DNA from: Gayadomonas joobiniege G7
GTDB taxonomy: Bacteria; Pseudomonadota; Gammaproteobacteria; Enterobacterales; Alteromonadaceae
DNA length: 64,000 nucleotides
NCBI RefSeq assembly: GCF_000300815.1
Contig: NZ_AMRX01000001.1
Span: 310,001-374,000, forward strand
Reading direction: 5' to 3'
Shown here: positions 3,315-64,000 of the stretch, in pieces
Position numbering within the stretch: the stretch's first letter is position 1
Layout: every line of letters starts with the position of its first letter
Program-made: the position numbers and the translations under genes
Notes under the pieces: generated by a model
Seen by the model: only the letters and a program-made list of their open reading frames with translations
Database searches by the model: none
What the model was told of the DNA's origin: nothing

Positions 3315-4511
3315 TTGCGAATTTTACATACTTCAGACTGGCATTTGGGACAAAACTTTTATAACCGCAACCGTAGTGCCGAACATCAGGCATTGATAGA
3401 CTGGCTAATAAAAACGGTACGTGATCAGCAAATAGATCTAGTATTAGTTGCGGGCGACATCTTTGATACGGGCGCACCTGCAAGTTACGCCCGCAAAATG
3501 CTAAACCAGTTTGTTGTTCAACTCAGTCAGCTAAATTGTCAGCTAATTTTATTAGCAGGCAACCATGACTCTGTCGCTGTGTTAAACGAGTGCCAGTCGT
3601 TATATGCGGCGCTAAATTGCCGTTTAGTCACCACAGCGCAAGCAAGCGCTATTCAAGAACAGATTTTCACGTTACAAAACGCCCAAGGCGAGCCTGCGGC
3701 TGTCTTTTGTGCCGTCCCGTTTTTACGGCCAAGAGATATTTTATCTGCAAGCGAAAGCAGCCATCAGGATCTGCAACACGCCATAAGTCGTCATTATCAA
3801 GCTTTATTTGAGCGAGCACAGGCCCTCAGCCAGCAAGTTGGAATAGCGTCTTTGCCTATCATCGGCAGTGGCCACTTAACTTTATTAAACTCTAAAAAAA
3901 CCAACTCTGTTCGAGATATTTATATCGGCAGCTTAGAAGCCTTGCCTGCGTCTGTTTTACCCGATTTTGACTATTTGGCACTTGGCCATATCCATCAACC
4001 ACAAGCAATCGGCCCAACGGGCAAAATACGCTATTCAGGCTCACCGTTAGCGATGAGTTTTGATGAAAAAAGCAGTGAAAAATCTGTGGTTATATACGAC
4101 ACTTTAGCAGCAGATCCTATTCATTTATTAGCAGTGCCTGAATTTCAACCTCTTAAACAAATCTGCTGTAGTTTACAGCAGTTACCGGCAGAGCTCGCCG
4201 CATTACCTGCACATAAGCTGCCCTATTGGTTAGACATTGAAATCTCAGCCACCGACTATCATGCAAAAGTACAACAGCAGGTGCATGAAATTGCGGCCGA
4301 TTATCCGGTTGAAGTACTGCTGGTTCGGCGTGCCCGCAAAGCCGCTCAACTAGATCCCGCTTTTATCCAAACCAGCTCGTTAACCGAATTAAAAGTCACC
4401 GATGTGTTTAATCAACGGCTCACAGAAATCGAGCTGGATTCTGAGCAAAGTCGAGCTTTGCAAACTCGGTTTTTACAATGCCTAGAACAAGTGAATAAAG
4501 AACCACTTTAG
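3315..4511 (+). CDS. sbcD: Exonuclease SbcCD, nuclease subunit SbcD
   Basis: SbcD is the Mre11-type metallophosphoesterase of the SbcCD complex, which cleaves DNA hairpins and protein-blocked ends. The 398-residue product shows the metal-binding motifs in order: HTSDWHLGQ at the N-terminus, GDIFDTG near 48, LAGNHDS near 93, SGHLTLL near 191 and LGHIHQPQ near 223. The start codon is TTG at 3315. This choice puts the canonical MRILHTSDWHLG at the N-terminus, and no ATG in frame would keep that motif. The gene ends 2 bases before sbcC, so the two subunits are translationally linked. Confidence 0.96.
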   Translation: MRILHTSDWHLGQNFYNRNRSAEHQALIDWLIKTVRDQQIDLVLVAGDIFDTGAPASYARKMLNQFVVQLSQLNCQLILLAGNHDSVAVLNECQSLYAALNCRLVTTAQASAIQEQIFTLQNAQGEPAAVFCAVPFLRPRDILSASESSHQDLQHAISRHYQALFERAQALSQQVGIASLPIIGSGHLTLLNSKKTNSVRDIYIGSLEALPASVLPDFDYLALGHIHQPQAIGPTGKIRYSGSPLAMSFDEKSSEKSVVIYDTLAADPIHLLAVPEFQPLKQICCSLQQLPAELAALPAHKLPYWLDIEISATDYHAKVQQQVHEIAADYPVEVLLVRRARKAAQLDPAFIQTSSLTELKVTDVFNQRLTEIELDSEQSRALQTRFLQCLEQVNKEPL

Positions 4512-4513
4512 TT

Positions 4514-7500
4514 ATGAAAATTTGTCGTATCCGTTTTACCAACTTAAATGCTCTAAAAGGAGACTGGCAAATAAACTTTGAGCAAGAGCCTTTTGTCAGC
4601 AATGGGTTATTTGTGATTTCTGGCGCGACAGGTGCAGGCAAGAGTACCTTGCTCGATGCTATTTGTTTAGCCCTTTACCATGAAACGCCCAGACTCCAAG
4701 TGTCACAGTCACAAAATGAGCTTATGACTCGGCACACAGCACACTGCTACGCCGAAGTTGAGTTTGCCATTAAAGGTCAGCATTACCAAGCTAGCTGGCA
4801 ACAAAAACGTTCAAGGGGTAAATCAGATGGCCGCCTACAACCGCCAAAAGCAGAGTTAAAATCCCTGTCAGAAGGCAAAATTTTGGCTGACAAGTTGCCG
4901 GAAGTAAAACGCCAAATAGAATCTCTAAGTGGTTTAAACTTTAGCCGATTTACCCAATCCATGATGTTATCTCAGGGCCGCTTTGCCGAGTTTTTAAACG
5001 CCAAAAGTAATGAAAAAGCCGAGTTGTTAGAAGAACTAACCGGCACAGAAATTTATAGTCAGATCTCCAAACAAGTACACCTGAATCATAAAAATAGCGA
5101 ACTTGAATTAACACGTATAAAAGACCAGCTCGATAATATTCAATTGTTAGGTGAACAAGACAAACAAGATATAGAGCAAGCTTTAGCCGATAAACAAAAT
5201 CAAGCCCAGCACCTTAAACAGCAACAAGAGCAACTAAATGAAATCCTCAATTGGCGTCAGCAAGCACAAAAATTACAACAACAAATAAGGCAAGCACAAA
5301 CTGAGGTTAATCAAAACCAACAACACTGGCAAACAAGCGAGCACCAGCGCCACTTATTACAAGCAGTACAACAAGCCGCCGAATTGCAGCCAAGCTGGCA
5401 AAAAACGCAAGAGTTAGCAGAACAACTGAACAAAACCCGCGAGCAAGTCTCGCTAACCCAGCAAAAAATCTTGCATTGTGAGCAATACAAAGAGCAAGCA
5501 GCTGAGCAATTGACCTTAGCCGAGCGACAGAGTCATCAGCTAAACGATTTACATCAGCAGCAAAAACAAATGCTGCAAGATCAAGCAGAGCCACTGAATA
5601 AACAAATTATTGAAATCACGACTGAGCTAAACGCCTTATCCCAACAACAAAAAAAAATAACGTTCGAACAGCAAAAGGCAGAACAAAAACAGCAGCCAGT
5701 GCAACAAACCCTGCAAAATAATCAACAGCGCTTAAAACAAATTGATGAGTGGCTACAAAAACATGCTCAAGACGAGCAATTAAATCAGGATAAAATCAGT
5801 TACTGGCAAGAACAGGCTCATAGTATTAAACAGCTGCAAAACACTATCCAACAACAGCAACAAGCACATCAGCAGGCCAGTGACCAGCAGCAAAAACTCT
5901 GGCAGAACCGCAACAAGCTCGTAGAGCAATATCAGCTTTATCAGCAGCAACAGCAGCAGCTATTCAATAAAAACCAACAGCAAGAAAAAACCATCAGTGT
6001 GCTGAAAAATCAACTGCATTGGCCCAGCCTTACTGCGACTCAATTATTAACATTGGCATACCATATTCAGCAATTAGATGATTCGAATACGCAACTTAAA
6101 CACCACCAAAAAGATCTTGTAGAACAGCAAGCACAGCAACAAAACTTGCAGCAGCAAGTAGCTCAAATGGAGCAAGAATTAGCAACAATGCGACAACAGG
6201 TTAGACAAAAAAATATCCATGTTGCCGACTTAAACCGCCTCATTCAACAAAGTCAAAAAATCGAACGACTGGAAGCTGAACGCGCTGAACTGATGGCCGG
6301 GCAAGCTTGCCCTTTATGTGGTGCGACCGAACACCCATTTGCAAATGACCTACCAGCCAACCCTGTCGCCGAGTACCAACAACGCCGACAGCAATTAGAG
6401 CAAGAAATTGCCGAGCAAACTGAACAAGGCGTGCAACTTAAAGGTGACCAATCGGCGAAGCGCCAGCAAATTACCCAGTTGCAAACAGAACAAGATCGCC
6501 TGCAACAGCGATTAACTCTATTGCAAAACCGCAGTCAGCAAATTGTCAACCAAGTACAAGAATATTTGCCCGAGTTAGCGCTGACTTTGGCAACCGAGAT
6601 CCCGAAAGACCTACAACAGCAAATTGAACAAGACAAACACTGCCACCAACAACTTGAGCAATGTCAAAGCGAGCTAAAAGATCAGCAGCAAGCTCAGCTT
6701 GAATGTCAGCATCAGTTGCAGCACAACCAGCAAGCTCAACAGCACAATAAAATACAGCTTGAGCAAACTGAGCACCAGCTGCACACGCTTGAAGCCCGAA
6801 TGACTCAATTGCAAACTGAAGCAGAGCTGCAGCAACAAGCGCTGGCACAACAATTAATGGCTTTTGGCATAAATACTGACAGGCAAAATAACTGGCCTCA
6901 AATACTCACTGAACGCTGGCAAGCTTATCAGCAGCAATTTTCAGCACAACTTAAAATTCAACAAGAAACTGAACAACTCTCTCAGCAAGCACAATATTTA
7001 ACTGAACAACTGACTGAGTTAACCAGCAAACATGCAGAGCTAAACCAACAAGTTGAAAATGCTCAGCAAAAACAACAAAAATTGCAACAATCGCTGGATC
7101 AGTTATTAACAGGTTTAAGCATCACCCAGTGGCGTGCAAAGATGCAGCAAGATGCACAGCAACAACTGCAAGCTATGCAACAAGCGCAAAACCATCATAA
7201 CCAGTTAAGCAACGAATTATCTGGCTTACAAAGCCGCCAATCGATATTAGAGCAACACCTCAGCGAACTTGATGAAACATACCAGAACGCGCTAAAACGC
7301 TGGCAAAATGCGTTAGAAGCGAGCCCTTTTAGTGACCAACAAACATGGCAGCAAGCCTGCTGGCCAGCAGAAAAGATAAAACGACAGGAAACTGAGTTTG
7401 CAAAAATGCAAAACAATTTGCAGCAAAGTGAACAACAACTCTCATTCTACCAGCACGCTAATCAGCAGCACCAAGCTCAACAGCCAGCCCATTACAAAGA

Positions 7501-23604: not shown

Positions 23605-24003
23605 TTATCGTGAAATAAAGCAGTCTAAGGTTTCTTTAAACCCTATTTCTTTGATCAGTTTGAGAATGGCACGCGCCGAAACAAATAACATCAGCAGGTT
23701 TAAACCAATAAATATGACAATCGATAGCCAAAGCGGAGCAGCTAACTGGTGAAGTCCCCATACAATTGCAGACATGATTCCCAACCAAGATAAGGTTGCA
23801 AAAACAATTACCATGACTGAAAGTATTAACACAGCCCATAAACTTTTTATATTTAAGTTGAGTTCTGTGTGAAATATAGCACCAACATCGCGAGCCTGGT
23901 CGCGAAAAGACTCCCTAATTTTAAGTATTAGGGTACGGCAGGCTTCAAACGAGGAATTATCCTCGCCTGAAGCAGGCTGTGCGGCTTTGTTGCTCGCATC
24001 CAT
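23605..24003 (-). CDS. Phage holin family/YqjE-like membrane protein
   Basis: A 132-residue protein with an N-terminal cytoplasmic region and two hydrophobic segments (about 55-78 and 85-112), ending in a basic helix. This fits the holin superfamily III/YqjE-type proteins found beside YqjD-type proteins. In E. coli the yqjCDEK genes are stress-induced and YqjD binds ribosomes at the membrane. An AGAGGT ribosome binding site precedes the ATG. It is 12 bases after the DUF883 gene. It is not a phage gene despite the family name. Confidence 0.75.
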   Translation of the reverse strand: MDASNKAAQPASGEDNSSFEACRTLILKIRESFRDQARDVGAIFHTELNLNIKSLWAVLILSVMVIVFATLSWLGIMSAIVWGLHQLAAPLWLSIVIFIGLNLLMLFVSARAILKLIKEIGFKETLDCFISR

Positions 24004-24015
24004 GTCGCTTACCTC

Positions 24016-24333
24016 TTACCGCTTGGACAGTAAAGAAGTTAACAAAGCACCGGCAGCAAATGCAATGCCCACGGTTGCTAACGGATTTTCTTTTGCCAAT
24101 GTACGGGCTGAATCCACTGACTGATTGATTTGTTTTTGCAATTGCTCTTGCTTTTCATGTAACGCTTCGCTTGCATGAGCGGCCTTGCTTCGCAGCTTGC
24201 TTTCGGCTGGAGAGGCTTTCTGATTTAACTTTTCAACTGCTTCGTGTGCGGCCTTGGTAGCGGCTTCAGTAATTGATTTTTGAATATCAATATCCTGTGC
24301 ACGTGAATTACTGGTTTGAGTTGAATTAGCCAT
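24016..24333 (-). CDS. DUF883 family (YqjD/ElaB-like) protein
   Basis: A 105-residue protein with a long Ala/Lys/Glu/Gln-rich amphipathic helix (15-75) and a C-terminal membrane anchor. The anchor region, AKENPLATVGIAFAAGALLTSLLSKR, is of the form typical for YqjD/ElaB. In E. coli such proteins tether inactive ribosomes to the inner membrane in stationary phase under sigma-S control. It is first of the three-gene minus-strand operon. GGAGGA lies just before the ATG. Confidence 0.8.
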   Translation of the reverse strand: MANSTQTSNSRAQDIDIQKSITEAATKAAHEAVEKLNQKASPAESKLRSKAAHASEALHEKQEQLQKQINQSVDSARTLAKENPLATVGIAFAAGALLTSLLSKR

Positions 24334-24756
24334 TATATCCTCCTAAAAACTTAGTTGCGGCTAAGCACCCTTTGCTTGCCGTCACTTTAGTTAGAGCAGA
24401 AAGCATGCCAACTCAAAACAAAAACATAAACCATTGATTTAAAATAAAAATAAATCCATTCCCTATATTTAACGGCACCCTGACGATTTTGTAAAAGTAA
24501 TTATTACAGTACCAAATATAAAACACAGGTAAAATTTACAGGTTAAATATTGAGCTTTAAAAAAAATGTGCTACTCAGCTTCACCTCGAATACAAAGGGT
24601 TAATCCAGTGAACAACAATAAACTGTGACTCAGTGCACATGTTTTTCGTTTTACAAAAAATAGACGGAATAAAAAGCCAAGCTACTTCGTTGAATAAGTG
24701 ACTTTGATGGCAAAACGCCATTATTAAAAAAAATCACAGTAAGCAGGAGAAAGCAG
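24334..24756. other. 423-base intergenic region with divergent promoters
   Basis: AT-rich region between the DUF883 operon (-) and the low-complexity secreted protein (+). It contains the ECF-type promoter at 24666-24693 and a small hairpin (TGGCAAAACGCCA with a following AT-run) near 24708-24722. No open frame with a convincing ribosome binding site and no RNA gene was recognised in the remainder. Confidence 0.6.
24666..24693 (+). promoter_or_regulatory. ECF-type promoter of the low-complexity secreted protein gene
   Basis: GGAAT (24666-24670), 17 bases, CGTTGA (24688-24693). It matches the promoters of the sigma gene (27924-27950) and the subtilisin gene (27871-27898) in both elements and spacing. 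The predicted start is about 57 bases before the ATG. Control by the sigma factor at 27983 is inferred. Confidence 0.55.
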
Positions 24757-25524
24757 ATGAAAACGTTAAACAAAACCTTAATCGCAAGCACCATGATTTT
24801 TACCAGTAGTTTTGCAGCTCAAACCTTCGCCGCTAACATTTCGGCTAGTGTAAACACTAACCAGCGCACTGAAGCTCAAACTGAAACAAGTCAAAATGGT
24901 GCTGTAAACACCTATGGCCAATCATCAACAGACAGCAGTATTATGGCCAATGCGACTCAAAATCAATCCAATGCTGGTGTCCAAAACCAGAATGCTCAAT
25001 CGACCAACACATCGGCTGAAGCATTAAATAGCATAAACGTGCAATCCAATCATCAACACACAGGCAGCGAGCAAAATACAGCTGAGCAGAATAATCAATT
25101 GCAAAACACGGCTAATACTCAAAGCCAAACTACGCAAACAAGCGGCCGGGCGCTTACAAGCAATTTATCACAAAGTGTGTCTGCAAATATTAACCAATCT
25201 GCCGACACAGCCACTGAACTTGGCAGTCAAATCAGCGGTCAAGTTGAATCATCAGTGAATGCAACGTTAAATACCGCACAAGATATTGAATCTAACGTCA
25301 GCTCTGTGGTTGACAGTGGTATCTCATCATCGCTTGAGACCAGCAATACCATTAGTGGCAATGTTGAAAGCTCAGTGACAGATACATTAGAAGCGGCTAC
25401 TCAAGCGAGTACTGAAAACAGTGTGCAGGGCGAACTGGATGCCACTTTAAACGAACAAGTTGAAGGCGCAGTCGAAAGCAACGCTGAAAATGCAATGAAT
25501 GTATCAAACTCAATAGGTTTATAA
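24757..25524 (+). CDS. Secreted Asn/Gln/Ser/Thr-rich low-complexity protein
   Basis: The 255-residue precursor has a clear signal peptide (1-25, cut after TFA). The mature part contains no Cys, Trp, Pro, Phe or Lys and is dominated by Asn, Gln, Ser, Thr, Ala and acidic residues. The first half is Asn/Gln-rich. The second half is amphipathic with a repeated unit (ISGQVESSVNATLNTAQ and ISGNVESSVTDTLEAATQ, about 40 residues apart). No family is recognised. The composition suits a disordered surface or matrix protein, possibly amyloid-forming, but curlin repeats are absent. CAGGAG precedes the ATG. It precedes an outer-membrane barrel gene and has its own ECF-type promoter. Confidence 0.8.
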   Translation: MKTLNKTLIASTMIFTSSFAAQTFAANISASVNTNQRTEAQTETSQNGAVNTYGQSSTDSSIMANATQNQSNAGVQNQNAQSTNTSAEALNSINVQSNHQHTGSEQNTAEQNNQLQNTANTQSQTTQTSGRALTSNLSQSVSANINQSADTATELGSQISGQVESSVNATLNTAQDIESNVSSVVDSGISSSLETSNTISGNVESSVTDTLEAATQASTENSVQGELDATLNEQVEGAVESNAENAMNVSNSIGL

Positions 25525-25549
25525 TAACAAGCTGATGCATCAATAGCCT

Positions 25550-25571
25550 GGGGGCCTTGCCCCCGCTTTTT
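25550..25571 (+). terminator. Rho-independent terminator after the low-complexity protein gene
   Basis: GGGGGC (25550-25555), a three-base loop and GCCCCC (25559-25564) are followed by GC and a run of five T. It lies 25 bases after the stop codon and separates this gene from the outer-membrane protein gene, although read-through is possible because no other strong promoter is obvious between them. Confidence 0.8.
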
Positions 25572-25625
25572 ATCACTCAATATAAATTTAATCATGGCCA
25601 AGCCCTATATGTTGGGAGTATCAAG

Positions 25626-26537
25626 ATGAACCCGTATAACTATTCTAAAATTTCATTATCAGCCCTAGCTTTAACGATCACTTGCCCTGTTTTGGCAGAG
25701 TTTTCGTCTGAGTTTAATAGTCAAGTGGGTGTGATCCACGATAGCCAGCTAACGATTGCTGAGCTTGATGGTACAAGCGAAAACCAAAGTGATACCGCGC
25801 GTCAACTGAAGGCTTCAGCTAAATTAAACTGGCAAAACGAACAACAAACAGTTCAAGCCAGCTATAGTTTTAACCAAAAAGACTATCAAAGCGCCAATGA
25901 CTACGATACCCAGTACCATTTAATAGGTGCCACCTATAGCCACAAACTTGCTGGTGTAAAATTAGCGGCGCGTTATAACTTTGCCGATATAAAACTGGCT
26001 GGAGATGATTTTTTAGACTTGAATATGCTGACGTTAGATGCTGGCTATCTATTTAACGAGCACTTTTATTTGCGCTTAGCCCATACGTTTCGCGATAAAA
26101 CGTTTGCTGAACCTTATGACAATCGTGATGCCTCTGCGAATATAAGCGCCGTTGACAGTTATTATTTTTTTAATAACAAACAATTTATTAATTTGAACTT
26201 AAGTTATGAAACTGAAGAAGCCGATGATCCCTTTTTTAATTTTGACCAACAGCAGTTAAAAGCAACTTTTAGTCAAGCTTATCAACTCTTTAAACAGCCA
26301 GGAAAAGCTCAGCTGGTTTTCCAATATCAGCAAAAAGACTATCAAAACTGGCTTATAGCGGATTCACAGCAACATAGAGATGATAATAGCCAAAGCATAA
26401 AGCTCATACTTGAGCAATCTGTCAGTCAATGGTTGAGCCTGAATACAGGTTTTGAGTATGCTGATAAAAGTTCTAATTTAGCAGCGGCCGATTATAGTGA
26501 GCGCCTGCTTGATATGAGTTTAACGGTGAGCTTTTAA
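25626..26537 (+). CDS. Putative outer-membrane beta-barrel protein
   Basis: A 303-residue precursor with a signal peptide ending near CPVLA. The mature part has alternating hydrophobic/polar strands rich in Tyr, Phe, Asp and Gln (for example VQASYSFNQKDYQ, VKLAARYNFADIKL, FINLNLSYETEE) and ends in SLTVSF, the C-terminal Phe of barrel proteins recognised by the BAM machinery. No specific family was recognised. The start is the ATG with GGGAG 8 bases upstream; an upstream in-frame start would lie within the terminator and is rejected. Its 3' end overlaps the convergent subtilisin gene by 18 bases. It may export or anchor the low-complexity protein, which is inference from position. Confidence 0.75.
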   Translation: MNPYNYSKISLSALALTITCPVLAEFSSEFNSQVGVIHDSQLTIAELDGTSENQSDTARQLKASAKLNWQNEQQTVQASYSFNQKDYQSANDYDTQYHLIGATYSHKLAGVKLAARYNFADIKLAGDDFLDLNMLTLDAGYLFNEHFYLRLAHTFRDKTFAEPYDNRDASANISAVDSYYFFNNKQFINLNLSYETEEADDPFFNFDQQQLKATFSQAYQLFKQPGKAQLVFQYQQKDYQNWLIADSQQHRDDNSQSIKLILEQSVSQWLSLNTGFEYADKSSNLAAADYSERLLDMSLTVSF

Positions 26538-27839
26538 AGACTCACCAATTCGCCCATAACCAAACTGCTTATCTTTACCGGGCTGGCCTAAATCTTTGGC
26601 TTGTCGGCTGAGTTTATTAAGCACTTTTGCGGACGCCAGTCCGGTTGCTCGTAAACATGCAAAATGCGCAGCTACAACAGGCGCTGCAAAGGAAGTTCCC
26701 GAAGCACTTATTGGCTCGCCATTGGCCTGCAGTACATTAACACTGACACCAAACGCAGAAAAATCCAAATGTTTGCCTTGGCTGGCAAATAGATAGCCTT
26801 GATCTTGCCAATTTACAGCTGTTACAGCAATCACTGATTGATACGCGGCTGGGTAAAGCTCTGCGGCGGCCGCCCCTTGATTGCCAACCGCCGCCACTAA
26901 CACTGCGCCTTTTTTATCAGCTGCTTGCACCGCTAACTGTAAGATCTGGTTGTGAGGACCCGTTAAACTTAAATTAATCACTGCAACTCGCTCGGCTAAC
27001 AACCAATCAATTGATTCAGCCAAACTGACCGCTGTTGCCCCTTGCTGACCATTCGGCCGCTGATAAAAGACGCCGGCTGAAAATAATTTAGCATTTGGCA
27101 ATAGCGGGTTTATCTGTTCGTCTTTGCCAACCAGCAGGCTGGCCACTTGAGTACCGTGTTCGAATGCTGCCGTTTGGGCGGGGGGTAAAAAACTTTTTGA
27201 GATAATGTTGGCTTGCTTAAAAGCGGCTAACTTGTGGTTTACCTGACTATCAATAAGACCAAATTTTAGCGGATCTGAACAAGCAGTTTGGTGTTTAAAG
27301 TGGCGCGCCTGACCACTATCAGCGGCTTGCGGCTGATAAATATGGTTGCGTTCTATAATCGTCTGTTCTGATAAATTAAGCGTTTTTTTAATCTGTTCAG
27401 CGCTGTCAAATTGAGGATTAACCCTCATTTTTACAATGTGCAAATTCAGCTCAGGTAAACGTTTAACATCAATATTTTGAACCCCATCTAACTTGAGTTG
27501 GGTAAACTTTTGATATTCATCATCAGTTAACAAAATCATCCATTCGAATGCAACAACCGCTTGCCCGTTTTCATCAAGTGCTTCGTGTACAAATGAGTCA
27601 AGCTGTTGCTCACCCAGTAGCTCGTTTAAACCCTCTACCGTCATGCCAACCAATTGTTCAGCGCTCACTTGCAACACTACCTCGTCGGATATTTGCTGGC
27701 TTATTTCATCAGCTAACTCTGTATTTTGTTCCACGACAGCATGAACATCATCAAGTACTCCGGTCAAAGCAAAGGCTGATGTACAGCTAAAAAAGGTCAT
27801 AGCTACCGTTATAATTTGTCTAAAACTTAGCTTAAACAT
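26520..27839 (-). CDS. Secreted S8 family serine protease (subtilisin-like)
   Basis: The 439-residue precursor has a signal peptide (1-24, ending SAFA), a long propeptide-like region (25-185) and a subtilisin catalytic domain (about 190-435). The catalytic residues are all present: Asp197 in GLIDSQV, His228 in FEHGTQVASLL, the oxyanion Asn320 in VAAVGNQGA, and Ser383 in SASGTSFAAPVVA. It acts outside the cytoplasm. The gene is divergent from the ECF sigma gene at 27983 and has a promoter of the same type (27871-27898), so the sigma factor probably controls it. Possible roles are processing of the neighbouring secreted protein or cleavage of the anti-sigma factor. Neither can be shown here. 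Confidence 0.9.
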   Translation of the reverse strand: MFKLSFRQIITVAMTFFSCTSAFALTGVLDDVHAVVEQNTELADEISQQISDEVVLQVSAEQLVGMTVEGLNELLGEQQLDSFVHEALDENGQAVVAFEWMILLTDDEYQKFTQLKLDGVQNIDVKRLPELNLHIVKMRVNPQFDSAEQIKKTLNLSEQTIIERNHIYQPQAADSGQARHFKHQTACSDPLKFGLIDSQVNHKLAAFKQANIISKSFLPPAQTAAFEHGTQVASLLVGKDEQINPLLPNAKLFSAGVFYQRPNGQQGATAVSLAESIDWLLAERVAVINLSLTGPHNQILQLAVQAADKKGAVLVAAVGNQGAAAAELYPAAYQSVIAVTAVNWQDQGYLFASQGKHLDFSAFGVSVNVLQANGEPISASGTSFAAPVVAAHFACLRATGLASAKVLNKLSRQAKDLGQPGKDKQFGYGRIGESLKAHR

Positions 27840-27870
27840 ACCTCATCTCCAAATTGGCTAAACTTTAAGT

Positions 27871-27898
27871 ACAACGGTTCAGCCTGCGATATAATCCC
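27871..27898 (-). promoter_or_regulatory. ECF-type promoter of the subtilisin gene
   Basis: On the minus strand: GGGAT (27898-27894), 17 bases, CGTTGT (27876-27871), about 32 bases before the protease start codon. TTGG precedes the -35 element here and in the sigma promoter (27924-27950), which strengthens the similarity. Confidence 0.5.
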
Positions 27899-27923
27899 AA
27901 GATAAAGTTTTTTAAAAAAAATT

Positions 27924-27950
27924 GGAATAAAAATCCCACTGCCACGTTAA
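27924..27950 (+). promoter_or_regulatory. ECF-type promoter of the sigma factor gene
   Basis: GGAAT (27924-27928), 16 bases, CGTTAA (27945-27950), about 33 bases before the ATG of the sigma gene. The GGAAT/CGTT form with a 16-17 base spacer is common for autoregulated group 4 sigma factors. It points to positive autoregulation. Confidence 0.6.
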
Positions 27951-27982
27951 TTAAAGGTAAACAGGTAAAACGAGCGATAACG

Positions 27983-28486
27983 ATGAAAGAACAATTAAAA
28001 TCTTTGCTGCCTCAGTTAAGACGCTTTGCTTTTGCATTAACCGGTGATGCGGATGATGCGGATGATTTATTGCAAAATACAGTGCTAAAACTGCTCAAAC
28101 AACCGCAAGATTTAGATGAACATAGTTTGATGAAATGGTCATTTCGAGTCTGTAAAAACTTATGGATCGACGAGTACCGCAACCGTAAGGTTCGCACACA
28201 AGCGAGCTATTCGCCAGAAGTACCAGAAGCAATTAGCACAGAAGATAGCGAGCAAGCACAAGAAAAGGCAAACACTCTAAAACAAGTTAATCATGCAATG
28301 GATCTGTTACCTGAAGATCAGCGCTCTGTACTAGCGTTAGTTGCTATGCAAGGGCTTTCTTACCGCGATACTGCCGAAGCCCTTAAATTACCGCTAGGGA
28401 CAGTGATGAGTCGATTGGCACGTGCACGAGCGAGTGTCAGCCAATCTTTAAAACAGCAGCAATTGGAGCCAAACCATGATATTTAG
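27983..28486 (+). CDS. ECF RNA polymerase sigma factor
   Basis: A 167-residue group 4 sigma factor. Region 2 (about 5-65) has LRRFAFALTGDADDADDLLQNTVLKLL and WSFRVCKNLWIDEYRNRK. Region 4 (about 105-155) has LPEDQRSVLALVAMQGLSYRDTAEAL and PLGTVMSRLARARASV, the -35-binding helix-turn-helix. It overlaps the anti-sigma gene by 11 bases. Three matching promoters in the window (before itself, the divergent protease and the low-complexity secreted protein) suggest its regulon is largely local. The inducing signal is unknown. Confidence 0.93.
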   Translation: MKEQLKSLLPQLRRFAFALTGDADDADDLLQNTVLKLLKQPQDLDEHSLMKWSFRVCKNLWIDEYRNRKVRTQASYSPEVPEAISTEDSEQAQEKANTLKQVNHAMDLLPEDQRSVLALVAMQGLSYRDTAEALKLPLGTVMSRLARARASVSQSLKQQQLEPNHDI

Positions 28487-29165
28487 TGAACAAGATTTAT
28501 CGGCTTTTTTAGATGCTGAGTTAGACGAAATTCAAATGCAAGCTATCCGAGAAGCTCTGATTGAAGATGAAGCTTTGGCACAGCGATTAGCCGATTTGGC
28601 TATGGTTGATGAACAAATTAAGCAGGTGTATTCGAGCATTAATAACAACAAGGTACCAGCAGAAATCGAAGCTTTATTAAACATAGATCAAGTACCGCAA
28701 AGCGCAAATGTTTATCAATTGTCGAATTGGTTTCGCCCAGCCAGTATGGCGGCCAGTGTTGCTCTGGTAGTGGGTTTATTGGTGGGTATCTGGTTACCGC
28801 AAAAAAATAATCTGAACTCTGCATGGCAGGCGCAAGTACAAGTACTAGACTCTAGTTTAAGTGGTGAAGCTGTAATAGATGAACAAGGCCGGACAATTCA
28901 GCCGCTGCTCTCTTTTGTGAACGCCGATGGAAACCTCTGCCGACAGTATCAAATTAGTGAGCCAGATCACAGTTCACAACACTTAGCTTGCCGTACTGAG
29001 CAAGGGTGGCGTAAACAACTAAGTCAGTTTGGCCTAGCCCCTCAAGTTGCAGAAGAATACGCAACCGCGTCGGGGCAGACGGATATCATGCGCCAAGCCA
29101 TTTCGCAAATGGCGGTCGGCGGCCTGTTAAATAAAACGCAAGAAGCAGAAAAATTAAACCGTTAA
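28476..29165 (+). CDS. Membrane anti-sigma factor
   Basis: A 229-residue protein. The N-terminal cytoplasmic domain (1-75) has the anti-sigma form DLSAFLDAELDE...REALIEDEALAQRLADL, without the zinc-binding His-Cys-Cys motif. One membrane segment lies at about 90-107 (MAASVALVVGLLVGIW), and a periplasmic domain follows (110-229) containing two Cys (LCRQYQ and LACRTE) that might be redox-sensitive. It overlaps the sigma gene and precedes a lipoprotein gene by 24 bases. It should hold the sigma factor at the membrane until a signal arrives. The name rests on architecture and coupling to the sigma gene. Confidence 0.85.
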   Translation: MIFSEQDLSAFLDAELDEIQMQAIREALIEDEALAQRLADLAMVDEQIKQVYSSINNNKVPAEIEALLNIDQVPQSANVYQLSNWFRPASMAASVALVVGLLVGIWLPQKNNLNSAWQAQVQVLDSSLSGEAVIDEQGRTIQPLLSFVNADGNLCRQYQISEPDHSSQHLACRTEQGWRKQLSQFGLAPQVAEEYATASGQTDIMRQAISQMAVGGLLNKTQEAEKLNR

Positions 29166-29189
29166 ACTTTGGATGCAGGAGAATACAAA

Positions 29190-29699
29190 ATGAAACCATT
29201 AATCGTTACTATGCTCATTGGAGTTTTATTATCTGCGTGTGCCAGCAAACCACCCTATCGCCCCGCTGAAGGCAATGGTTATGGCTACAAAGAAACACAA
29301 ATTACAAATAAAAAATATCGGGTTCAATTTAAAATTCGCAGCGAAGATAAAGGGGCTGCTATGAATTTTGCGTTATTGCGAGCTGCCGAGATCACAAAAA
29401 ACAATGGTTTTGATTGGTTCACGATAAACGACAGGCAAACCTTGGTCGATAACCAAAGAATTAATCAGGGCACTGGCGTGAGCGTGGGTCAAACCTATGG
29501 CCGCCGTTGCGGCTTATTGGGTTGCACAGATGCAGGCCCAAGCACCAGCGTAGGTTTATCTATGGATCTAAGTGGAAACGACAGTGACATAGAGAGCATA
29601 CTCGAGATCACCATGGGAAAAGGTGAATTGCCCGACAGCGATAACGCCTATCAGGCACAAGAAGTTTACGATAACCTATTAGAGTTAACCCGCCAGTAA
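29190..29699 (+). CDS. CC0125/CC1285-like lipoprotein
   Basis: A 169-residue lipoprotein with a signal ending LLSAC-A-S (lipobox Leu-Ser-Ala-Cys). The mature part PPYRPAEGNGYGYKETQI...YRVQFKI...RAAEITKNNGFDWFTINDR resembles the small CC0125/CC1285 lipoprotein family, of unknown function and often coded beside ECF sigma genes. An upstream in-frame start at 29169 exists, but AGGAG lies 8 bases before the ATG at 29190, which also gives a standard signal. It is third in the sigma/anti-sigma operon and may take part in sensing. It ends 4 bases from the convergent pckA. Confidence 0.75.
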   Translation: MKPLIVTMLIGVLLSACASKPPYRPAEGNGYGYKETQITNKKYRVQFKIRSEDKGAAMNFALLRAAEITKNNGFDWFTINDRQTLVDNQRINQGTGVSVGQTYGRRCGLLGCTDAGPSTSVGLSMDLSGNDSDIESILEITMGKGELPDSDNAYQAQEVYDNLLELTRQ

Positions 29700-37580: not shown

Positions 37581-38638
37581 GATTTATCCTGTAACTTAAT
37601 CGGCAGAAAGACGGTAAATTCGGTGTGACCAGGCCAGCTTTCACAATGAATGCGCCCCTGGTGTTGGTTAACAAGTGTTTGGGCAATGGATAAACCTAAT
37701 CCAGTGCCGTCAGATTTGGTTGTGATCATGGGGTAGAACAAGGTATCTCTAATATGCTCTGGGATACCTGGACCATTGTCAGTGATTTTTATCACCGCAG
37801 CCAGTTTATGGCGTCTCCCATGTATTGTTTCTTGACTGGCAATACGAGTTGAAAACTTGATTTTACCATTGCGTTGCGGCTTTAATGCCTGGTAAGCATT
37901 GCGCACAATATTTAATACCGCTTGGTAGATCTGCTCTTCATCCATCGAAAATTCGGGGATACTTGGATCATAATCGCGTTCAAATTTAACTCGGTTGGCA
38001 TCAAACTCAAGCTCTATCAACTTTCTGACTTGCTCTAAAATTTTATGGACGTTTGCCAACGAGCGCTTAGGCATACGAATAGGACCAAGCAGTCGATCGA
38101 CTAAATTTCGCAACCGGTCAGATTGCGCAATAATTACTTGCGAGCATTCTTTAAGCTCTTCTTTTTCAACCATTTTATCAAGTAATTGTGCAGCCCCTCG
38201 GATCCCACCTAACGGATTTTTAATTTCGTGAGCTAACCCCCTAATTAAATCTCTTGACGCCAGCATTTGTGATTGCACAAAATTTTCCTGGCTGACCCGT
38301 TTAAGTTGATCGATAGTGTGGATCTCGATCAGCATATAACAATGGTTTTTTTGTTTAACTGGGCTAAACGTCAGCTCGGCCATCGCATGATGTTCGTCCA
38401 TAGTGACTAACGAAACTTCGGTTTCCGTAAAACCTTGCTGAATTGGGATCACCTGGCGAACCCGCTCCCAGTCAAACGAACTGTAGCGAAATAACTGAGC
38501 AAAATTTAGCTCTTGTAAACGGCGAACACTCAGCTTAAAAAAGCTTTCGGCTGCAGGATTTGCATAAATTATTTGTAATTCAGAGTCAGTGACTAACACA
38601 CAAGTACTCTGGTTATTTAAAATCAGGTCATTTAACAC
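37577..38638 (-). CDS. ntrB: Nitrogen regulation histidine kinase NtrB (GlnL)
   Basis: NtrB phosphorylates or dephosphorylates NtrC depending on the PII signal protein. The 353-residue soluble kinase has an N-terminal PAS domain (about 5-110, with IIYANPAAESFF), the H-box RGLAHEIKNPLGGIRGAAQLL, and an ATPase domain with NIVRNAYQAL (N box), ITDNGPGIP (G1) and TKSDGTGLGLSIAQ (G2). It overlaps ntrC. Two tandem NtrC-like sites lie 27-60 bases upstream, which would allow autoregulation as at the enteric glnL promoter. Confidence 0.97.
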   Translation of the reverse strand: MLNDLILNNQSTCVLVTDSELQIIYANPAAESFFKLSVRRLQELNFAQLFRYSSFDWERVRQVIPIQQGFTETEVSLVTMDEHHAMAELTFSPVKQKNHCYMLIEIHTIDQLKRVSQENFVQSQMLASRDLIRGLAHEIKNPLGGIRGAAQLLDKMVEKEELKECSQVIIAQSDRLRNLVDRLLGPIRMPKRSLANVHKILEQVRKLIELEFDANRVKFERDYDPSIPEFSMDEEQIYQAVLNIVRNAYQALKPQRNGKIKFSTRIASQETIHGRRHKLAAVIKITDNGPGIPEHIRDTLFYPMITTKSDGTGLGLSIAQTLVNQHQGRIHCESWPGHTEFTVFLPIKLQDKS

Positions 38639-63657: not shown

Positions 63658-64000
63658 ATGACTTTGGCGCACAGTGTTTTGGCTGTAAACGACGATTTAC
63701 CGATTAGAACCGATAAACCCGTTCATAGTGGAAAAGTCCGCTCTGTGTATTGGTTAACTGAAGCCGATAGCCGTCGCTTAATTGAAGAAAAAAATTACCC
63801 AGTAAAAGCCGATGCGCCGTTAGCTATTATGGTGATCAGTGACCGTATCTCAGCCTTTGATTGCATTTGGCATGGTGAAGGTGACTTGCAAGGGATCCCG
63901 GGTAAAGGCGCTGCGTTAAACGCCATAGCTAGCCACTGGTTTAAACAATTCAAACAACAAGGTTTAGCAGATAGTCACATTGTTGATATTCCGCACCCCT
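63658..64000 (+). CDS. purC: SAICAR synthase (purC), 5' part
   Basis: PurC catalyses the ATP-dependent addition of aspartate to CAIR in purine synthesis. The 114 residues present (cut by the window end) read [65 protein letters not shown] and [10 protein letters not shown]. These match the long (about 365 residue) PurC of Vibrio and Alteromonadales rather than the 237-residue E. coli type. TTAGGA precedes the ATG at 63658. Confidence 0.95.

Follow-up and report, generated by a model that had tools for sequence, protein, structure and literature searches.

A candidate autoregulated ECF sigma-factor module linking a low-complexity secreted protein, an outer-membrane barrel and a subtilisin in Gayadomonas and its relatives

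In a 64,000-nucleotide stretch of the Gayadomonas joobiniege G7 genome (the window), which places in the Catenovulum group, six neighboring genes encode a secreted low-complexity protein (LC), an outer-membrane barrel (BARREL), an S8 protease (SUBT), an ECF sigma factor (SIGMA), a probable membrane anti-sigma factor (ANTI) and a lipoprotein (LIPO), bearing out the gene descriptions of the initial annotation. The assignment of SIGMA, SUBT and LC-BARREL to one ECF regulon is well supported by comparison with related loci. We further consider it probable that these genes make up an autoregulated module whose abundant product is LC, with BARREL as its likely exporter or anchor and SUBT as its processing partner. 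The case is built by comparing sequences, and it draws on promoters, gene set, co-occurrence, an intergenic hairpin, barrel homology, a protease triad and a four-residue repeat.

The initial annotation had proposed that three copies of a GGRAT-N16-17-CGTT element link these genes and that the element lies nowhere else between genes. A window scan recovered all three putative promoters, each within 2 bases of its earlier placement: GGAATAAA..CGTT (GGAAT) with a spacer of 17 before LC (24666–24691, plus strand), a GGGAT form with a spacer of 17 before SUBT (27873–27898, minus strand) and GGAATAAA..CGTT (GGAAT) with a spacer of 16 before the SIGMA operon (27924–27948, plus strand). The other two window matches both fall inside stop-free frames, as the proposal would have it, one at 37956 (361 codons, opposite strand) and one at 63892 (120 codons, reaching the window end). 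By count alone the excess in the window is modest, since the 5 matches compare with a mean of 1.4 (sd 1.1) in 100 Markov-1 randomisations whose maximum was also 5. Across the whole genome, the short GGAAT-N16-17-CGTT form is not significant by itself because its 35 sites, 2 of which were inspected singly, compare with 68 for the reversed pattern. Both counts speak for the three motifs being chance matches, a reading that we nevertheless regard as very improbable, because the motif is kept at the same three genes across dozens of loci and scarcely anywhere else in them. Near gene starts in relatives, the strict motif precedes SIGMA in 54 of 71 cases, SUBT in 56 of 78 and LC in 47 of 69 (searching 750 bases for LC and 450 for SIGMA and SUBT), versus 0, 0 and 2 for the reversed motif near the same starts. 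It precedes BARREL in 1/65, ANTI in 0/67, LIPO in 0/49 and other genes of the related loci in 7/942. A genome search for the element thus gave no excess of the short form, but comparison across relatives supports it.

An extended motif, GGAATAAA-N13-14-CGTT, occurs at 27 sites in eight Catenovulum-group genomes (reversed control, 31), and 19 of these precede LC, SUBT or SIGMA; the remaining 8 overlap ORFs, one of them also lying 32 bp before a 155-aa ORF. In two Catenovulum genomes (G003 and G004) the LC-BARREL pair is located elsewhere, and it retains the element there. Eight genomes of other genera hold 28 extended sites versus 10 reversed. By position, 10 of the 28 belong to SIGMA or LC, 3 to genes for other ECF sigma factors or for DUF5666 proteins, and 15 lie elsewhere (10 inside ORFs of at least 100 aa and 5 not). 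The linkage of the genes by three promoters is supported, with an amendment for BARREL, which mostly lacks a promoter of its own and sits after LC and a hairpin. This terminator-like hairpin with its T-run lies between the two genes (25549–25565, plus strand), and its counterparts appear in 42 of 71 LC-BARREL gaps versus 5.8 expected. Because it separates LC from BARREL, LC would be made in excess over BARREL.

All six genes are present in each of the eight Catenovulum-group genomes. Among 80 SIGMA loci we recognised SUBT in 78, BARREL in 71, ANTI in at least 71, LC in 69 and LIPO in 48; these counts are lower bounds, as SIGMA, ANTI or LC is hidden behind longer antisense ORFs at several loci and the ORF filter missed SIGMA itself in 9. 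BARREL and SIGMA were found in the identical 30 of 147 family genomes, a coincidence whose weight is inflated by the relatedness of the genomes. A later set of 18 loci is not fully independent, since it partly repeats earlier genomes (L239 and L099, for example). We left out the joint LC-SUBT count from clustering, which had merged the two through low-complexity matches. There are exceptions: BARREL and LC were not found at two SIGMA loci that have SUBT and ANTI (L134 and L167), BARREL was not found at L172, and none of SUBT, ANTI, BARREL and LC was found at L171; conversely, in one genome (G056) the roughly 9 kb around BARREL gave no match to SIGMA, SUBT or ANTI. The expected co-occurrence of the gene set extends well beyond Alteromonadales, but the set is not always complete, as the LIPO count illustrates. 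Together, the kept promoters, gene order and co-occurrence support the proposal of a local ECF regulon, and we found no system with such a gene set described in the open-licence literature. The initial annotation also suggested that the module might serve in remodelling the surface matrix or the envelope.

SIGMA (27983–28486, plus strand) is a short protein of 167 aa with sigma regions 2 and 4 only, as in ECF factors; it matches Sigma70_r2 (45.6 bits) and Sigma70_r4_2 (50.8 bits) above the Pfam cut-offs and TIGR02937 at 85.5 bits versus a cut-off of 42.9. As is typical of ECF factors, its putative promoter is common to its predicted targets. ANTI (28476–29165, plus strand) overlaps SIGMA by 11 bp and contains a hydrophobic segment, and C155, C172 and W178 are invariant among 75 sequences. 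Its matches to anti-sigma models are weak and below cut-off (DUF3379, 21.2 versus 33.2 bits for the window protein; RseA_N, 21.2 versus 24 bits for the L031 protein). LIPO (29190–29699, plus strand) belongs to the CC0125/CC1285 lipoprotein family, scoring 147.5 bits on NF047637 against a cut-off of 40; in this setting it occupies the third position in an ECF operon. The arrangement resembles the RpoE-RseA and EcfG types in its two-domain ECF sigma factor, in the overlapping downstream membrane protein with a possibly anti-sigma-like N terminus and in an apparent promoter of its own of the GGAAT..CGTT type. The EcfG consensus is GGAAC-N16-17-CGTT. It differs from those types in that the predicted targets in the Catenovulum group are only LC-BARREL, SUBT and its own operon, and in that the periplasmic part of ANTI carries an invariant two-cysteine pattern and is matched only weakly by known models.

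SUBT (26520–27839, minus strand) is a 439-aa S8 subtilisin with a signal peptide, matching Peptidase_S8 at 102 bits versus a cut-off of 21.8. Among 82 sequences, D197, H228 and the oxyanion N320 are present in 100% and S383 in 99%. SUBT shares the S8 fold and triad with proteases such as mycosin and QhpE, but falls below the cut-offs for mycosin, QhpE and IteS, and differs from known subtilisin-like proteases in its variable N-terminal region, which in some relatives carries four-residue repeats. We rejected assignment to a defence system: SUBT is weak on the PADLOC IetS and 'subtilase' models (best, 42.5 bits) and reaches 34.4 versus 900 bits on the NCBIfam IteS model. SUBT is divergent from SIGMA, has the same type of putative promoter and is the most constant neighbor, and the two loci without detected BARREL or LC retain SUBT, SIGMA and ANTI. 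These features suggest another role, in which SUBT is mainly a part of the switch, a site-1 protease that cuts ANTI in a positive feedback, with LC as a sensor or competitor substrate. We think this rather unlikely as the main function, as SUBT carries repeat modules of its own, which suggests that its partner is LC, and note that it is compatible with the module we favor, the two not being exclusive.

BARREL (25626–26537, plus strand) is a 303-aa outer-membrane protein for which the AlphaFold model (pLDDT 85) predicts 14 strands, the first starting at residue 25. In profile comparison by hhalign it aligns across the complete barrel with TPR-barrel proteins (99.9%, E 2.3e-31, 276 columns), 3 of 11 of which match SlipAM. 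Among 26 barrels, SlipAM is matched by 12 and BBP2_2 by 16; the window's own BARREL matches neither. The 14 modelled strands and the SlipAM matches of relatives are those of a Slam-type DUF560 barrel, and the adjoining gene for a small secreted protein is a further likeness to Slam (type XI) systems. Two features set BARREL apart from these. Every Slam in the set reported in PMC5449769 had both a TPR domain and a barrel, whereas a Pfam-type profile search for a TPR domain in BARREL found none; and known Slam cargo, as described in PMC8406197, ends in a C-terminal eight-stranded barrel, which LC does not have. Searching the BARREL profile against sequences of solved structures gave nothing at E up to 1. 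Among solved structures, the window's BARREL is closest in fold to two passive channels, CymA (Z 22.9) and OmpG (Z 21.7). The end of BARREL also resembles EpsL (TIGR03014), whose model matches 6 of 7 barrels (best E 8.8e-12), and the TPR-barrel proteins include polysaccharide exporters, according to PMC8406197. On this basis BARREL might export or bind a polysaccharide, with LC and SUBT shaping the polysaccharide matrix, but the score lies far under the EpsL cut-off (39.2 versus 275 bits), and we give this reading little credence.

LC (24757–25524, plus strand) is a 255-aa protein with a signal peptide, rich in N, Q, S, T and A, that matches no Pfam or NCBIfam family above cut-off; matches to CheX, TFIIA and similar Pfam models were dismissed as below cut-off and compositional. 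For a secreted amyloid-forming subunit of the Fap or curli kind, the relevant observations are this residue composition and the absence of a family match. Its AlphaFold model (pLDDT 51) is half disordered, with a low-confidence helix at 105–254 and no predicted strands. Aromatics make up 0.9% of LC, and 60 of 65 LC proteins have no cysteine. This composition and disorder, together with the resemblance of BARREL to CymA and OmpG, would suit a periplasmic disordered shield or spacer against envelope stress. The regulon would then be genuine but would serve a stress response of the envelope instead of secretion, with BARREL acting as a passive channel and SUBT disposing of damaged protein. We regard that as unlikely, as substrate and machinery is the better fit to the constant pairing of LC with a dedicated TPR-barrel-related BARREL and to a terminator that would hold BARREL below LC.

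A four-residue hydrophobic repeat, located in the C-terminal part of the window's LC, is present in 62 of 65 LC proteins. The three LC proteins without it are those of L038, L170 and L173, and it is at these loci that the SUBT N terminus is most strongly repetitive. LC is absent at L224 and L225, where SUBT carries acidic four-residue repeats, and at L228, where those of SUBT are visible by eye; at L233 the SUBT repeat reaches only p 0.03, and at L226 and L227, which have no LC, it is not significant. Of 82 SUBT proteins, 22 carry a repeat at p ≤ 0.01, mostly alongside an LC repeat, and the exchange of the repeat between LC and SUBT is not strict. A more specific reading is that the (hydrophobic-x-x-x) repeat marks proteins for export through a 14-stranded translocon barrel that has no TPR domain, which would be a small, undescribed outer-membrane route with its own ECF switch. 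The repeat could then be a tag for both export and assembly, because it commonly lies on a separate LC and in other loci is built into the SUBT N terminus. We offer this reading tentatively.

For the module that we favor, we infer promoter recognition by SIGMA, an inducing cue, export of LC via BARREL and action of SUBT on LC. ANTI would keep SIGMA at the inner membrane until a periplasmic or surface cue releases it. Freed SIGMA would then transcribe three units from GGAAT-N16-17-CGTT promoters, namely SIGMA-ANTI-LIPO, SUBT and LC-BARREL, and a leaky terminator inside the last of these would make LC abundant and BARREL scarce. LC would cross the inner membrane by means of its signal peptide, and BARREL, as a TPR-less relative of Slam-type translocon barrels, would most likely export it or anchor it at the outer membrane. 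SUBT may act on the part of LC that bears the repeat, or together with it, so that LC is trimmed, released or removed.

Comparison across relatives can establish a promoter motif that is too short for significance in one genome. If the proposal holds, an unnamed, self-contained envelope module is spread across dozens of gammaproteobacteria from the sea and from soil, and translocon-like barrels would extend past the TPR-bearing Slams. A very regular four-residue protein repeat would gain a candidate role, its first, and the module would serve as a simple system for finding what an uncharacterised anti-sigma factor senses. The module would also provide a genetic handle, consisting of one sigma factor, three promoters and one abundant secreted product.

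Six genes lie in this part of the 3.9-Mb Gayadomonas joobiniege genome, encoding a low-complexity signal-peptide protein (LC, 24757-25524, +), an outer-membrane barrel (BARREL, 25626-26537, +), an S8 subtilisin (SUBT, 26520-27839, -), an ECF sigma factor (SIGMA, 27983-28486, +), a probable membrane anti-sigma factor (ANTI, 28476-29165, +) and a lipoprotein (LIPO, 29190-29699, +). Two small genes at 23605-24333 (-), back to back with the LC gene, encode a Phage_holin_3_6-like membrane protein and a DUF883_C protein with an ElaB/YqjD-like match. The initial annotation proposed that three matching promoters join the six genes into a local ECF regulon, and we found all three elements where it had placed them, to within 2 bases; that of SUBT is a GGGAT variant, which counts as a miss when scored strictly (GGAAT-N16-17-CGTT). 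By count alone the element is not above chance, with 5 matches in the window versus 1.4 expected, and the genome search for the short-form motif that the annotation had suggested gave 35 matches versus 68 for the reversed pattern, a genome-wide count that lends no support. Comparison of loci says otherwise.

The comparison used loci encoding a close relative of SIGMA, the top 80 of 395, from genomes titled Alteromonas, Marinobacter, Kangiella, Cellvibrio, Microbulbifer, Idiomarina, Pseudidiomarina, Rheinheimera, Alishewanella and others, and MAGs titled Marinicaulis and Hellea. The strict element was found near the start of SIGMA in 54 of 71 cases, SUBT in 56 of 78 and LC in 47 of 69, with the reversed pattern occurring 0, 0 and 2 times, respectively; many of the misses (17/71, 22/78 and 22/69) have CGTC for CGTT. 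An earlier count, which included three additional loci, scored strict and looser forms, finding the strict element 5' of BARREL in 1/65, ANTI in 0/67, LIPO in 0/49 and non-module genes in 7/942, and the looser form at SIGMA in 69/74, SUBT in 64/72, LC in 49/57 and other genes in 56/942. There, the element usually read GGAATTTTT at SUBT and GGAATAAA at SIGMA and LC. Another ECF sigma gene, in Kangiella taiwanensis (L221:8440-9468, G314:C1), has GGAATAAA..CGTT 63 bp 5' of its start and adjoins a small gene whose product is similar to zinc-finger-type anti-sigma factors.

The eight genomes of the Catenovulum group contain 27 GGAATAAA-N13-14-CGTT sites, 19 at LC, SUBT or SIGMA and the other 8 overlapping ORFs. 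Two of these genomes, G003 and G004 (loci L097 and L098), provide a natural test of the regulon: LC and BARREL do not adjoin SIGMA, and the element was located first and the missing pair then found behind it, ~13 kb off in G003 and on a separate contig in G004. In G006, the pair lies ~6 kb from SUBT. With the displaced pairs found, the six genes are complete in all eight genomes. Co-occurrence, which the initial annotation had put forward as a check, holds for BARREL and SIGMA in the family: at E ≤ 1e-30 for both proteins, BARREL is present in 30 of 147 genomes drawn from the family and SIGMA in the same 30, across 14 of 52 genera. In a class-wide sample of 274 genomes, the only strong BARREL hits were in the window's own genome and in G056; C17 of the latter (L189:9451-11024, -) encodes a BARREL relative preceded by a gene for a short protein with a signal peptide, and the 20 kb retrieved contain no match to SIGMA, SUBT or ANTI, so BARREL can be found away from the rest of the module. 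Of the 80 SIGMA loci, L134 and L167 encode SUBT and ANTI but neither BARREL nor LC, L172 is without BARREL, L171 is without SUBT, ANTI, BARREL and LC, and L103 and L146 are at a contig end or on a short contig. LIPO, a CC0125-family lipoprotein, was recognized in 48/80, and is therefore likely an accessory.

The AlphaFold model of BARREL (7 sequences, pLDDT 85) has 14 strands. Among solved structures, the model comes closest to CymA (Z 22.9, rmsd 3.3, 268 aligned) and OmpG (Z 21.7, rmsd 3.1, 244 aligned), matches that indicate fold rather than function, since many barrels give good scores. At E ≤ 0.01, 16 of 26 BARREL relatives match BBP2_2 and 12 match SlipAM; the window's BARREL has a sole match, OMP_b-brl, under the cut-off. 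Weaker class-wide relatives are longer proteins with TPR repeats N-terminal to the barrel (TPR_19 in 11/11, TPR_Slam in 4, SlipAM in 3), and profile comparison with these aligned the whole barrel (99.9%, E 2.3e-31, 276 columns). This alignment and the family matches identify BARREL, at the profile level, as a TPR-less relative of Slam-type barrels; since it lacks the TPR domain, we do not class it as a Slam. At locus L228, a gene divergent to BARREL (3991-6756, -) encodes a secreted protein of 921 aa that contains a long repeat rich in cysteine and acidic residues (ECDEDEEDCDDMR-like).

A, S, T, V, N, E and Q are abundant in LC proteins (n = 65), and aromatics make up 0.9%. Hydrophobicity in their last 60 residues is autocorrelated (mean 0.65, 0.69 and 0.64 at lags 4, 8 and 12), and the four-residue repeat is present in 62/65 (p ≤ 0.01, shuffle test); the LC model is poor (pLDDT 51), with the repeat as a low-confidence helix and the preceding part disordered. 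The LC-BARREL gap holds a terminator-like hairpin (25549-25565), weak on its own because the region scanned has 8 such sites versus 5.5 in shuffles; across loci, hairpins occur in 42/71 of these gaps versus 5.8 expected, an arrangement by which LC would be produced in excess over BARREL.

The SUBT catalytic triad is conserved, and 22/82 SUBT N-termini bear four-residue repeats (p ≤ 0.01). The strongest (VEDD-like) adjoin the LC-position proteins without a repeat, at L038, L170 and L173; L104 has the repeat on both proteins. The L038 protein (3984-6533, +) is a lipoprotein of 849 aa in which DUF5666 stretches occur ten times, and its gene has a strict element 158 bp upstream. Marinimicrobium agarilyticum has a second, sister module (L220:6992-12744, G315:C2) comprising ECF SIGMA, ANTI, BARREL, a SUBT whose four-residue repeats are acidic, and a DUF5666 gene; SIGMA and the DUF5666 gene are each preceded by the same type of promoter. 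A further set of 18 loci includes 12 whose LC bears the repeat and 6 that lack LC; of these six, the SUBT repeats are strong in L224 and L225, visible by eye in L228 (p 0.02 for the stretch tested) and weak in L233 (p 0.03), and testing found no SUBT repeat in L226 and L227. This pattern, a trend with exceptions and no rule, suggests that repeat and protease act together.

The promoters, gene set, co-occurrence, hairpin, barrel homology, repeat and triad are established by sequence comparison. The parts are of known kinds (ECF signaling, S8 proteases and translocon-like barrels); what appears new is their combination, with its promoter-defined boundaries and repeat-protease link, which we did not find in the open-licence literature, and ECF classification may list such a context in some ECF group. 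We infer that SIGMA recognizes these promoters and is restrained by ANTI, and that LC would traverse the outer membrane by way of BARREL or together with it and be acted on by SUBT.
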